Positions 1-27,242 of a stretch of 64,000 bases of DNA are shown piece after piece; positions within the stretch are counted from its first letter, which is position 1, and each line of letters opens with the position of its first letter. Position numbers and translations under genes: made by a program. The stretch comes from Brachybacterium alimentarium (GTDB taxonomy: Bacteria; Actinomycetota; Actinomycetes; Actinomycetales; Dermabacteraceae), in contig NZ_NRGS01000025.1 in the NCBI RefSeq assembly GCF_002332425.1, positions 62,001-126,000 on the forward strand. Reading direction: 5' to 3'. The notes beneath the pieces are model-generated. The model was given only the letters and a program-made list of their open reading frames with translations. It searched no databases and was not told where the DNA came from.

Positions 1-2269
<2,269 letters not shown>

Positions 2270-2328
2270 GGATGAATCGTCCTCCGAAAGTTCAGTGCGG
2301 CGAACGCCGCCAGGTGTCTCGTGACATG

Positions 2329-2430
2329 AAAAAACCCTCGCGCAGGCGAGGGGAGCCGCGTCGGGGCCCGCACAGGCGCACCTGCGCGGTCAGGAGCGCG
2401 GGGCGGGCGCGAACATTGTCCGACGCGGCT
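2329..2430 (-). promoter_or_regulatory. leuS transcription attenuator
   Basis: On the minus strand the leader can form a perfect 11-bp stem (2430-2420 with 2364-2354). Inside it is a 9-bp hairpin (2389-2381 with 2376-2368, one G.U). An intrinsic terminator follows: a 7-bp stem 2352-2346/2341-2335 and then TTTTTT at 2334-2329. The alternative pairing is CGCGCAGG (2388-2381) with CCTGCGCG (2346-2339), which would destroy the terminator. A ribosome at the leader-peptide stop would cover 2388-2381 and allow termination. A ribosome stalled at the leucine codons would leave that segment free. The fold was worked out by hand, without energies. Confidence 0.65.
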
Positions 2431-2455
2431 GCATAAGCAGAAGCCGTCGTGTCAC
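2390..2455 (-). CDS. Putative leucine leader peptide of leuS (21 aa)
   Basis: Too short for routine gene calling. It starts at GTG and begins MTRRLLLMQPRR, with the run CTT-CTG-CTT as codons 5-7 (2443-2435). CTT is uncommon in this GC-rich window, so the run should be sensitive to charged tRNA-Leu. A -10-like hexamer TACCAT (2467-2462) sits six bases before the GTG, suggesting a leaderless transcript. No strong -35 is visible. The stop codon (2392-2390) lies next to an attenuator arm, as expected if the ribosome position chooses the RNA fold. This is inference from sequence only; translation has not been shown. Confidence 0.65.
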   Translation of the reverse strand: MTRRLLLMQPRRTMFAPAPRS

Positions 2456-2538
2456 ATGGTCATGGTACCGCGCCCCCGGTCCTGCATCACGAGGGCAAGC
2501 CGAGGGCGCGGTGAGAGGCATCCGAATAGCGTCACGCC

Positions 2539-3951
2539 TCACATGTTGTCGGCATCCTCCGGTAGGAAGTTGGGGTCTGGCTGCCCGAAGCCTTCTGGGA
2601 GCTTAATTGGGCAGAACTGCTGCATTGTTGGGTTCACGTATTCCTGAGCGATGGTCACCGCGTCCTCGGGGCTCTGTGATTTCTGATTCAGACTATCCTG
2701 CAGCGTAAACATCGCATCCCATATTTTCGTGCCGACCGGCAGTGGCAGTCGAGATTGCGCGTACGGCATTTGGTCGACAAAAAACTGGATCGCGGGGTCG
2801 TAGGCTTCGCGGTCTTTAGCGGCTTCTACGTATGTCGGGATCTTCGCGATTCCGGGCATGTAAATCTTTTGACCCTCGTATCCGGCATAAAATTTCATGA
2901 GCTCCCATGCGGACTTCGACATGCTGGAACCCTTGGGCATGGCGAAGGAGAACCCTCCGGCCCAATTGAAAGGTTCCCCACCCGAGTCGGCGATTGGCAG
3001 GTGCGTCAAGCCGTAGCGAAGATCGGGCTTGTATTTCTTGAGGCTTCCAACCGAGTCAGGGACGCTGATTTGGAACAGTTGCCGGCCAGAGAAGAAGGAG
3101 GTCTGACTGGGGGGAGCGTTGGGTGGCTGGTACGTGGCCTTAAAGGCGTCGACGCGCGGAAAATCGAGTCTGTCAGCCCATTCCGCGTATATTTTTGCAA
3201 CATTTAGCATTTCGTCTGAGTCCAGTGTGACGTTGCACGACTCGTTGTTGAACATCGAAACGCCGTAAGCGTATGCCCACATGAGCAGCGACCCCTGGTC
3301 GTCCCAAGGTATCCACGTGAGCTTCTCGTAGGTTCCGCGCGAGTCTTGAATGTTGAAGGAGTCGTTAATTTCCCACATCTGCTCAATGGTCATTGGCCCG
3401 GTCTCGGGGTCGAGAAGGTCTGGGTCAATGTCGGCCTCTTCGGCAAGGTCTTTATTGTAGAAAAGAGCTCTGGTGTCGGTGTCTAACGGGAGCCCATAAT
3501 ATTGGCCGTCGTAAAAGAGCTCATCTGTAGCGAACTTGACCCAGTTAGACATGAACTCTTCCGGGGAGACCTTTTCGTATTCCTCGATTAGGTCATCAAT
3601 TGGCTCGAGTAGTCCGAGGGAAGCGTACTGTGCCCCATTGAATCGGTCCATCCAGAAGATATCGGGGCCAGTTCTGCCTCTTACGGCGGTGATGACTGGA
3701 GAGTTATCGCCAGCACCGTTGTCGGGGGCGACCGAGACGTTTACCTTTATTTCGGGGTACTGTTCGGAGAATGCTTCGAGGACGGCAGTCTGAGTGTCTT
3801 CGAAACTATTGGAGACGCCCCAAACTCTTACTGTGTCGGGGTCGCGGTCGTCTCCGACAGGTCGGTCGGTGCAGCCGACGATCGAGCCGCCGGCGATGGT
3901 GACGCTCGCTCCGGCACCGAGGGCGCGCAGCAGGGTCCGACGATTGATCAC
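2539..3951 (-). CDS. Sugar ABC transporter substrate-binding lipoprotein
   Basis: Family 1 extracellular solute-binding protein (470 aa) that would deliver a sugar or oligosaccharide to the two permeases encoded just upstream. The N-terminus carries a twin-arginine-like RRTLL and a lipobox ending at Cys27 (SIVGC), so a membrane-anchored lipoprotein is expected. It starts at GTG, overlapping the permease stop by four bases. The mature part is clearly poorer in GC than the signal-peptide part and the permeases: two lines I counted gave 50% and 55%, against 72% in a permease line. Codon choice there is also less GC-biased. The substrate cannot be read from the sequence. Confidence 0.9.
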   Translation of the reverse strand: MINRRTLLRALGAGASVTIAGGSIVGCTDRPVGDDRDPDTVRVWGVSNSFEDTQTAVLEAFSEQYPEIKVNVSVAPDNGAGDNSPVITAVRGRTGPDIFWMDRFNGAQYASLGLLEPIDDLIEEYEKVSPEEFMSNWVKFATDELFYDGQYYGLPLDTDTRALFYNKDLAEEADIDPDLLDPETGPMTIEQMWEINDSFNIQDSRGTYEKLTWIPWDDQGSLLMWAYAYGVSMFNNESCNVTLDSDEMLNVAKIYAEWADRLDFPRVDAFKATYQPPNAPPSQTSFFSGRQLFQISVPDSVGSLKKYKPDLRYGLTHLPIADSGGEPFNWAGGFSFAMPKGSSMSKSAWELMKFYAGYEGQKIYMPGIAKIPTYVEAAKDREAYDPAIQFFVDQMPYAQSRLPLPVGTKIWDAMFTLQDSLNQKSQSPEDAVTIAQEYVNPTMQQFCPIKLPEGFGQPDPNFLPEDADNM

Positions 3952-4871
3952 TTAAAACCTCCGAGAGTGATGCCGCTGATGAAGTAGCGCTGGAACATGA
4001 AGAACAGGATGACCAGCGGCAGCAGCACCAGGAACGAGGCGGCCATGAGCAGGTTGAACTGGATGTCCTGAGCATTGACGGAGCGGAACACCTGCATACC
4101 GATCGACAGTGTCTGTTTGCTGGCGTCCTGAAGGTAGATCAGGGGGCCCATGAAGTCGTTCCATGTGCCGACCGCCGCGAAGATCGCGATCACCGTGACC
4201 GCGGGACGCGCAGTGGGGAACACGATCCGCCAGGCGATGGACCATTCGCTGGCGCCGTCGACACGTGCCGCGTCCATCATGTCCTTCGGCGTCTGCAGCA
4301 TGAACTGTCGCAGGAGGAAGGTGAAGAACCCGCCGGCGAACAGTGCCGGCGCGATCAACGGCACCCAGGTGTTCACGAAGCCGAGGCCCGCCCACATGTC
4401 GAACATCGGGATCAGGGTGACGGGGAAGGGCAGGAACAGGGTGGCCAGCACGATGAAGAACACCTTGTTCCGCCCGGGCCACTCGATGCAGGCGAAGCCG
4501 TACGCCACGATGAAATTCGAGATCACGCTGAAGACCACCACGCTGATCGTGATGATCGCGGTGTTCCGGAAGAACGTCCAGAACGGCATCACGGTGACGG
4601 CGTCGGAGAAGTTCTGCCACCGGAACTCGGTGGGGAACAGGGTGGGCGGGAACTGTGCGAGCTCCTCGGGCGTCTTCAGCGCGGAGATGAGCATCCAGTA
4701 CAGCGGGAGCGAGAACAGGATGAGCACGAGGAGCATCACGAGGCGCGAGATCCAGGCGCCCACCGGGCTCTGCCGGGAGCCGTCCGCGTTGCGGCCGTAG
4801 TCGGACCGCGACTTGAGCTTGGGGGACTGACCGAGATTCTGCGTCCCGGTCTCGAGAGTATTGATAGCCAT
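3948..4871 (-). CDS. Carbohydrate ABC transporter permease (MalG-like)
   Basis: Inner-membrane permease of the CUT1 sugar family (307 aa). It has six probable membrane segments, the first near residues 42-62 (RLVMLLVLILFSLPLYWML). The conserved cytoplasmic EAA loop is seen as DAARVDGASEWSIAWRIVFP near residues 205-225, the contact site for the ATPase. It lies 16 bases after the MalF-like gene and overlaps the binding-protein gene by four bases, so the three are co-transcribed. No ATPase gene is in the operon; the MsiK/UgpC-type protein encoded at 26048-27133 could serve. Confidence 0.92.
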   Translation of the reverse strand: MAINTLETGTQNLGQSPKLKSRSDYGRNADGSRQSPVGAWISRLVMLLVLILFSLPLYWMLISALKTPEELAQFPPTLFPTEFRWQNFSDAVTVMPFWTFFRNTAIITISVVVFSVISNFIVAYGFACIEWPGRNKVFFIVLATLFLPFPVTLIPMFDMWAGLGFVNTWVPLIAPALFAGGFFTFLLRQFMLQTPKDMMDAARVDGASEWSIAWRIVFPTARPAVTVIAIFAAVGTWNDFMGPLIYLQDASKQTLSIGMQVFRSVNAQDIQFNLLMAASFLVLLPLVILFFMFQRYFISGITLGGFK

Positions 4872-4887
4872 GTCTGTGTTCTGCTCC

Positions 4888-5910
4888 TCAGCCGGCCGAC
4901 ACGTCGTAGTTCACGAACCGGCGCGAGAGCCAGTAGATGAGTCCGGCCAGCACCATGCCGAACAGGAACAGCAGCACGGCCAATGCGGAGGCGAAGCCGA
5001 GCTGCCCGTACGAGAAGGCGTTGCGGTACAGGTACAGCATGTAGAACAGCGTCGAGTTGTCCGGGCCGCCGTTGGTCATGATGAACGCCTCGGTGAACAC
5101 CATCATCGCGCCGGAGACGCCCGTGATCAGGTTGAACAGGATCGTGGGAGTCAGCAGCGGAACGGTGATCGAGAAGAACTGGCGGAACTTGCCCGCGCCG
5201 TCGATGCGTGCTGCTTCGTAGAGCGTCTCGGGAATGTTCCGCAGGCCCGCCAGATAGATGAGCGCGGCGTTGCCTGCGCCCAGCTGGGCCATCACGATCA
5301 TCACGATCTTCGCGTAGCGCGGCTCGCCCAGCAGGTTGGTGTCCGGCATGCCGAACAGGCCCAGGAACTGGTTCACGATGCCGAACTGGGGGTTCACGAA
5401 CACGATGAAGATGAACGACATCGCGAACATCGGGATCAGCGAGGGCAGGTACAGCAGGGTGCGGTAGATCGCGACCTCGCGCACGTTGCGGTTCATCGCC
5501 ATTGCCAGCAGCAGGGCCACGATCAGACCGATCGGCACCGCCAGCAGCATGTAGTAGACGGTGTTGCCCACCGAGGTGTGCACCATCGGATCGGCGAACG
5601 CGGCGATGTAGTTCTGGAACCCGATGAATGTCGGAGTCTGCATCCCCGAGTACTGCGTCAGGCTGATCACGAAGGAGTAGATCAGCGGATAGATGACGAA
5701 GACAGCGACCCCGATGATCCACGGTGAGATGAAGAGGAGTCCCAGTCGGAGATTCCGCTTCTCTCGTCCCGTCAGCTTCCTCTTGGCGGATCTACCGCCA
5801 CCGCCGTTCTGGGCTCGGGGCCCGCTCCGCGCAGTGAGGTCGGCGGCGGGGACGGAACCGGGAGACCCGGTCCTCGGTGTGCCCGTCGCGACGGCATCGC
5901 TCGCGCTCAT
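4888..5910 (-). CDS. Carbohydrate ABC transporter permease (MalF-like)
   Basis: Second permease of the sugar importer (340 aa from the chosen start), CUT1 family. A basic Gly/Arg-rich cytoplasmic N-terminus precedes membrane segments beginning near LLFISPWIIGVAVFVIYPL. The EAA loop reads YEAARIDGAGKFRQFFSI. An upstream in-frame ATG (5943) exists, but I prefer the ATG at 5910 because GAAGGGAGAGCG precedes it as a good ribosome binding site. It is first in the operon permease F - permease G - binding protein, read from the promoter near 6023-6052. Confidence 0.92.
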   Translation of the reverse strand: MSASDAVATGTPRTGSPGSVPAADLTARSGPRAQNGGGGRSAKRKLTGREKRNLRLGLLFISPWIIGVAVFVIYPLIYSFVISLTQYSGMQTPTFIGFQNYIAAFADPMVHTSVGNTVYYMLLAVPIGLIVALLLAMAMNRNVREVAIYRTLLYLPSLIPMFAMSFIFIVFVNPQFGIVNQFLGLFGMPDTNLLGEPRYAKIVMIVMAQLGAGNAALIYLAGLRNIPETLYEAARIDGAGKFRQFFSITVPLLTPTILFNLITGVSGAMMVFTEAFIMTNGGPDNSTLFYMLYLYRNAFSYGQLGFASALAVLLFLFGMVLAGLIYWLSRRFVNYDVSAG

Positions 5911-6013
5911 CGCTCTCCCTTCGGATTCTCGCCGCGCCTCCATCGGTGCGGTGACACGGGAAGATCAGGCGTCGGTGCCTTCGTGACCGTCTCCATCCGG
6001 GCCACGTCTTCCC

Positions 6014-27133: not shown

Positions 27134-27242
27134 GGTGGTGCTCCTTCACCGGCAGGTACGTGCCGGACGGTCCGTTGTGAAGTGATGGTCACCGGTCTCG
27201 ATCGCCCCTCGCGAAGAGGTGCTCCCTTGCACCGGCGAGGTG

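Follow-up and report, generated by a model that had tools for sequence, protein, structure and literature searches.

Leader and terminator upstream of leuS

The window, a 64,000-nt stretch of Brachybacterium alimentarium DNA (contig NZ_NRGS01000025.1, positions 62,001 to 126,000), opens on the minus strand with the 5' part of leuS, which is closest to Brachybacterium (in the first 290 residues, as much as 88% with named relatives; same-genus genomes 74-90%). Reading the minus strand upstream of this gene locates a leader open reading frame, an outer stem (P1) and a terminator at the places given in an earlier sequence-only reading of the same DNA, whose 21-codon GTG frame with CTT-CTG-CTT before leuS and 11-bp outer stem with a T6-tailed terminator are borne out by the sequence and, for the stem and terminator, also by folding:

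2462..2467, minus strand: -10-like box TACCAT, 6 nt 5' of the GTG (read directly; putative leaderless start)
2390..2455, minus strand: leader open reading frame, GTG (2455-2453) to TGA (2392-2390), 21 codons, VTRRLLLMQPRRTMFAPAPRS (read directly)
2435..2443, minus strand: control codons CTT CTG CTT, Leu 5-7 of the leader (read directly)
2420..2430, minus strand: P1 5' strand, AGCCGCGTCGG (fold, pair counts, spacing)
2365..2419, minus strand: variable inner region (inner hairpin), containing the final codons and the stop of the leader (fold, alignment)
2354..2364, minus strand: P1 3' strand, CCGACGCGGCT, 1 base 5' of the terminator arm (fold, pair counts)
2329..2352, minus strand: intrinsic terminator, CCCTCGC (2352-2346), loop CTGC, GCGAGGG (2341-2335), T6 (2334-2329) (sequence and fold)
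2..2269, minus strand: leuS, leucyl-tRNA synthetase, 5' part, ATG at 2269, running off the window (TIGR00396 leuS_bact, E 2.9e-200)

P1 consists of 11 perfect pairs (2430-2420 with 2364-2354); counted from the leucine codons, its first base (A2430) comes fifth, and its core GCCGCG (2429-2424) is preceded by the five spacer bases ATGCA lying behind those codons. The minimum-energy fold of the leader, composed of P1, the inner hairpin and the terminator, reaches -64.1 kcal/mol and beats all 200 dinucleotide shuffles (z -3.88), a favourable outcome for the folding check that the sequence-only reading had proposed. The terminator hairpin alone has a computed energy of -12.7 kcal/mol, and in the alignment the inner region is highly variable in both length and sequence.

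Several further features were observed in the surrounding DNA. A strong inverted repeat at 2467-2512 (minus strand; fold of -35.5 kcal/mol) ends with the initial T of the -10-like box and thus spans the -35 position; it could mark where the upstream operon ends, or be an operator, and inverted repeats seem by eye to occupy a comparable place in some Brachybacterium relatives. Farther upstream, three co-directional open reading frames (2539-5943, minus strand) appear by eye to encode a sugar ABC transporter, with a binding protein and two permeases. Just past the T-run, the motif CATGTC (within 2323-2334, minus strand) is by eye similar across many families, though it lies beyond the expected 3' end. 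The sole match in the window at Rfam gathering score is an msiK RNA (RF01747, 58.1 bits) at 27135-27193 on the minus strand.

Distribution in the genus, the family and the class

A leuS match was obtained in all 38 same-genus genomes searched, and a Leu-Leu-Leu leader with a GTG or ATG frame is present in 36 of the 36 readable upstream regions; the two unreadable ones, L007 and L016, are cut at contig ends, and L055 and L059, equal to them in length, have the element. Conservation of the leucine codons in relatives, named as a check by the sequence-only reading, therefore holds in every readable region of the genus. Within the Brachybacterium family, leaders occur in two main forms, a long, window-like one and a short one ending at or just past the leucine run (mostly LLLP-stop). 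Leaders of at most nine codons account for 16 of the 41 family records and stop before or within the P1 5' strand. One Brachybacterium locus, L030, was observed to keep the leucine leader and P1 and to be without a T-run after the second hairpin.

Beyond the genus, a class survey was conducted in which 109 of 246 genomes gave a leuS match at E 1e-40, 107 of them non-Brachybacterium, and 80 upstream regions were analysed. The leader scan, defined as a TAnnnT box followed by a short frame with Leu-Leu-Leu and ignoring P1, found the leader in 44 of these 80 regions. In cluster f24, all 19 regions have the leader, which reads exactly MRAVRLLLSEPR in 16 of them, and the peptide VRGLLLLIGPR is typical of cluster f25.

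A covariance model (R1) was built from 19 sequences of other families (alignment A3); since no Brachybacterium row was included, the window constitutes a true test. A mixed alignment of Brachybacterium and other families (A2) was not used for the model because its terminator arms were one base out of register. R1 finds the window copy at 2457-2329 with 44.7 bits and E 1.4e-9 (next window match 0.26), and over the whole genome of the same organism the window element ranks first at 8.8e-8 (next 0.28). It adds two loci, L144 and L145, from the 36 scan-negative class regions, and it matches in 166 of 394 class genomes at E 0.01 or better, in a scan whose stricter filters missed the window's own genome, which was found in the separate window and whole-genome searches. 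Downstream of 40 R1 matches chosen for family diversity, a LeuS N-terminus is present in 37. The element occurs in 25 family clusters, and the window copy is homologous to it.

Among 80 named loci, some of which cover only about 250 bases upstream of leuS, R1 identifies 23 of 23 Brachybacterium-type loci, one of six from other Dermabacteraceae and none of 51 outside the family (including Actinomyces, Schaalia, Cellulomonas and Actinotalea). From the other genera of the family nine genomes were covered, and two have the element: L046, which has the leader and whose counterpart L077 scores 23.9 bits with R1, and L050, which scores 32.4 bits. L051, a divergent leuS match from one family member, gives no R1 match.

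Codon-to-stem geometry, covariation and the proposed switch

The relation between the leucine codons and P1 is highly regular in these leaders. Of 111 distinct leaders, drawn from 25 family clusters, 109 have GCCG(C/T) starting exactly 5 nt past the last leucine codon; up to 36 records in this count were chosen by R1, which favours 5-nt spacing, and the rest came from P1-blind leader scans. The two exceptions are leaders with a fourth leucine codon. The scan of these leaders gave no Leu-run start for L267. The stop codon, in contrast, lies 0, 1, 3, 4, 5, 8, 9, 13 or 14 codons past the last leucine. In these sequences, the constant feature is the distance from the leucine codons to P1 and not the position of the stop, and the idea that the stop position sets the switch was rejected because the stop moves over 0-14 codons. 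The weight that the sequence-only reading had placed on the leader stop adjoining an antiterminator strand likewise finds no support, given the 16 short leaders among the 41 family records and the Streptomyces-type leaders, which stop directly past GCCGCGC.

In 33 distinct family leaders, the first leucine codon is CTC (23), CTT (4), CTG (4), CTA (1) or TTG (1), synonymous change by which the amino acid is kept. The last leucine codon of the run is CTT in 102 of the 111 leaders, and CTT makes up 5 of the 252 leucine codons in six window open reading frames. Among the 111 distinct leaders, 104 have a TAnnnT box whose end is 6 or 7 nt upstream of the start codon, the class-scan leaders in this count having been preselected for such a box within 16 nt. 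Together with the TACCAT 6 nt upstream in the window and the Streptomyces homologue reported as leaderless in PMC8079986, this makes a leaderless GTG, as suggested by the sequence-only reading, probable.

Pairing in P1 was assessed in two alignments, A1 with 37 Brachybacterium-family sequences (leaving out L030, which is without a T-run, and the near-duplicates L026 and L031) and A3 with 19 sequences of other families and no Brachybacterium. In A1, the pairs of P1 and the terminator hold in 98.8% of cells (terminator pairs in 100% of counted cells), both partners are changed in 10 cells (2.7 in shuffles), and the covariation score is reached by no shuffle; three pairs show double-sided change, a number reached by 41 of 500 shuffles and one of two measures, out of five, that shuffles attain about this often (41 and 45 of 500). 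The compensatory changes in P1 amount to 8 cells in 2 pairs, 7 of its 11 pairs being invariant. In A3, the pairs hold in 97.4% of cells, with 4 double-changed cells against 0.5 in shuffles and P1 compensatory changes in 3 cells of 2 pairs; the number of pair types is no better than in shuffles, and one covariation measure is reached by 298 of 500. Covariation support for P1 in these alignments is modest. As to covarying stems in relatives, which the sequence-only reading had named as a check, P1 shows compensatory changes in both alignments, while the antiterminator pairing shows none in the family.

These observations point with good confidence to transcription attenuation at leuS that is mediated by a ribosome, responds to how far tRNA-Leu is charged and probably lets the cell raise LeuS output when charged leucine tRNA runs short. 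In the mechanism proposed, whose leaderless start, termination, stalling and direction of response we infer, transcription would start at or next to the GTG, and the first ribosome would begin on the leader at the 5' end. With charged Leu-tRNA plentiful, the ribosome would clear CTT-CTG-CTT and leave, P1 and then the terminator would form, and most transcripts would end near 2329. With charged Leu-tRNA short, the ribosome would wait at a leucine codon and cover the five spacer bases and the GCCGCG core, P1 would be blocked, and RNA polymerase would more often pass the terminator into leuS. A ribosome is reported to cover about 12 nt downstream of the codon being read (PMC4833913); counted from the last leucine codon, a 12-nt footprint would span the 5-nt spacer and the GCCGCG core. 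The sensing half of this switch is well supported.

A constitutive terminator accompanied by a chance open reading frame, with no regulation, would agree with the finding that the window terminator forms in every computed ribosome state. It is nevertheless very improbable in view of the conserved leucine run with synonymous change, the fixed spacing, the covarying P1, the leuS context and the isoleucine version found at an isoleucine-pathway gene, described below. A T-box or another described riboswitch is scarcely credible: T-boxes have been reported upstream of actinobacterial ileS (PMC1262725), but a search of Rfam 15 at gathering score gave no match to any family at the window element or at six homologous loci.

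How the ribosome's position would be passed on to the terminator is less clear-cut. The sequence-only reading had proposed three states, in which CGCGCAGG (2388-2381) pairs with CCTGCGCG (2346-2339), breaking the terminator, unless blocked by a ribosome at the leader stop. The two segments are indeed perfectly complementary over 8 bp at these positions, but when the inner region was shuffled 2000 times, 83 of the shuffles also gave complementarity of at least 8 bp, and within the family the pairing holds in 76.6% of cells with zero compensatory change. Enforcing it costs 14.4 kcal/mol in the whole leader (-49.7 versus -64.1) and 7.0 kcal/mol even with the P1 5' strand removed (-36.2 versus -43.2), and short-leader relatives terminate translation well before the CGCGCAGG region. 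Because the enforced pairing is costly and matched by shuffles, mutually exclusive folds of this kind are unsupported, as is this antiterminator itself; this exact model is improbable.

A second three-state arrangement would have the P1 3' strand (CGCGGC, 2360-2355) pair with the terminator loop and 3' arm once a ribosome masks the P1 5' strand. The pairing appeared convincing at first because it is possible in most species: it gives the best terminator-free fold of the window without the P1 5' strand, 2.1 kcal/mol above the best fold, and its cells are paired at 97.2% in A1 and 85.7% in A3. As an antiterminator it nonetheless failed its controls, which indicate that GC-rich sequence alone would yield as much. 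Random loops do equally well (median fraction 0.585, 78 tails), and so do shuffled strands (median 0.55) and random hairpins (median 0.61; 71 tails for both); compensatory change is zero in A1 and amounts in A3 to one cell, no more than shuffles would lead one to expect. A mechanism built on this pairing is thus a doubtful, though possible, account. Shuffling the inner region also leaves terminator-free folds as easy as they are with the native one (median 0.52 over 104 tails, none of them at 0.05 or less). Records without a pattern-found terminator, and six tails whose terminators were doubtful, were excluded from the shuffled-strand, hairpin and inner-region tests. No specific antiterminator pairing that survives these controls was found in these sequences.

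Alternatively, P1 may aid termination directly, for example by serving as a pause hairpin or through stacking on the terminator, and a stalled ribosome would remove that aid without any anti-antiterminator. This would fit the short gap of 1 to 3 nt between P1 and the terminator arm in A1 and A3, given the pairs as drawn, as well as the antiterminator searches, which found none; on the other side, the terminator hairpin is stable alone at -12.7 kcal/mol. In the window, the terminator remains the best fold without the P1 5' strand, its probability passing from 1.0 to 0.99, and removal of this strand lowers terminator probability by at least 0.3 for nine of the 40 family records, including one whose terminator had been misplaced. 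Direct aid by P1 can be entertained only tentatively as the output step, and the expected antiterminator step of the leucine attenuator emerges as a gap unsupported by these sequences.

An isoleucine counterpart and relation to known attenuators

Two of the 40 R1 matches and six further loci have isoleucine codons (e.g., MPSQVLIIVRRAG) in place of leucine codons, each before a citramalate-synthase-like gene; at two of them, the partial protein has TIGR00977 as its best match (E 1.3e-75 and 3.9e-75), with scores that fall short of the cut-off for the full length. A model built from these eight loci (R2) matches in 168 of 394 genomes, some matches being leuS elements (e.g., G280). Among 50 R2 loci, 49 contain a citramalate-synthase fragment match and none a leuS match. 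The search itself yielded 30 of these loci; they all belong to cluster f22, seven are training loci, and for them gene presence in the locus was the only criterion; the other 20 were picked from other clusters, and the citramalate-synthase match lies downstream in 19.

The loci L274, L275, L283-L288 and L293-L341 from other genomes show, at citramalate-synthase-like genes, an isoleucine leader, a stem and a terminator in the layout of the leuS element. The remaining one of the 50 R2 loci, L342, has at about 60-165 a frame VRTRILVVMQRAG, behind which come a stem and a terminator-like hairpin with a T-run; it lacks a citramalate-synthase match and looks like a branched-chain leader.

In both the leuS and the citramalate-synthase families the codons match the pathway of the gene, which argues for sensing by codon. 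It is tentatively suggested that the two share one design, widespread in Actinobacteria, in which a leaderless start is followed by control codons (two or three), a short step (5 nt at leuS, 3-8 nt by eye at citramalate synthase), a GC-rich stem gating termination and a terminator behind it, with no dedicated antiterminator, so that a codon swap would re-target the switch from leucine to isoleucine. Among the matches listed in a search of the open-access literature, an isoleucine counterpart at citramalate synthase is not mentioned. This natural Leu/Ile codon swap makes the sensing step directly testable.

Classical proteobacterial attenuators of amino-acid operons and of pheST combine control codons, an adjoining stem and a terminator. 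The window element resembles them in its control codons, its stem beside the codons and its terminator, and a stem whose 5' strand would be covered by a ribosome on the control codons is present in the form of the P1 core. It differs from them in being probably leaderless and in having no demonstrated antiterminator. The pheST case is also mentioned in PMC1262725.

The leuA LEU element is described, in the relevant passages of PMC1262725 and PMC8079986, as an actinobacterial leucine leader peptide with a proposed pseudoknot and no typical terminator. The window element shares with it the leucine leader peptide in Actinobacteria; the LEU element precedes leuA, whereas the gene downstream in the window is leuS.

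The closest counterparts are found in Streptomyces. Classical attenuators were predicted before leuS in Streptomyces coelicolor and S. avermitilis (Seliverstov et al., 2005; PMC1262725), and, as described there, they have in common with the window the leuS gene, the leucine leader peptide and a terminator with a T-run. For S. lividans TK24, PMC8079986 reports leuL2, MRAVRLLLSEPR, as a leaderless transcript with a hairpin and uridines before leuS; its start site comes from RNA-seq, whereas that of the window element is predicted from sequence. The f24 copies, which carry this S. lividans peptide, agree with the window in Leu-Leu-Leu, the 5-nt spacer, GCCGCG/CGCGGC and the adjacent terminator. 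They differ in the terminator arm (CCCCTC against CCCTCGC in the window), in an inner region unrelated in sequence, and in leaders that end 4 codons past the leucine run, compared with 0 to 14 codons in the Brachybacterium family.

As a homologue of the Streptomyces element, the window element belongs to an already known kind, and part of its wider distribution may already be in print, with Lopatovskaya et al. (2010), as cited in PMC4833913, having treated attenuators of synthetase genes. This analysis adds the breadth of occurrence, the drifting stop at a fixed distance between the leucine codons and P1, the isoleucine counterpart and the antiterminator tests, which failed. What had been predicted for two Streptomyces species is thereby extended to an element that a covariance model backs in many families of the class.
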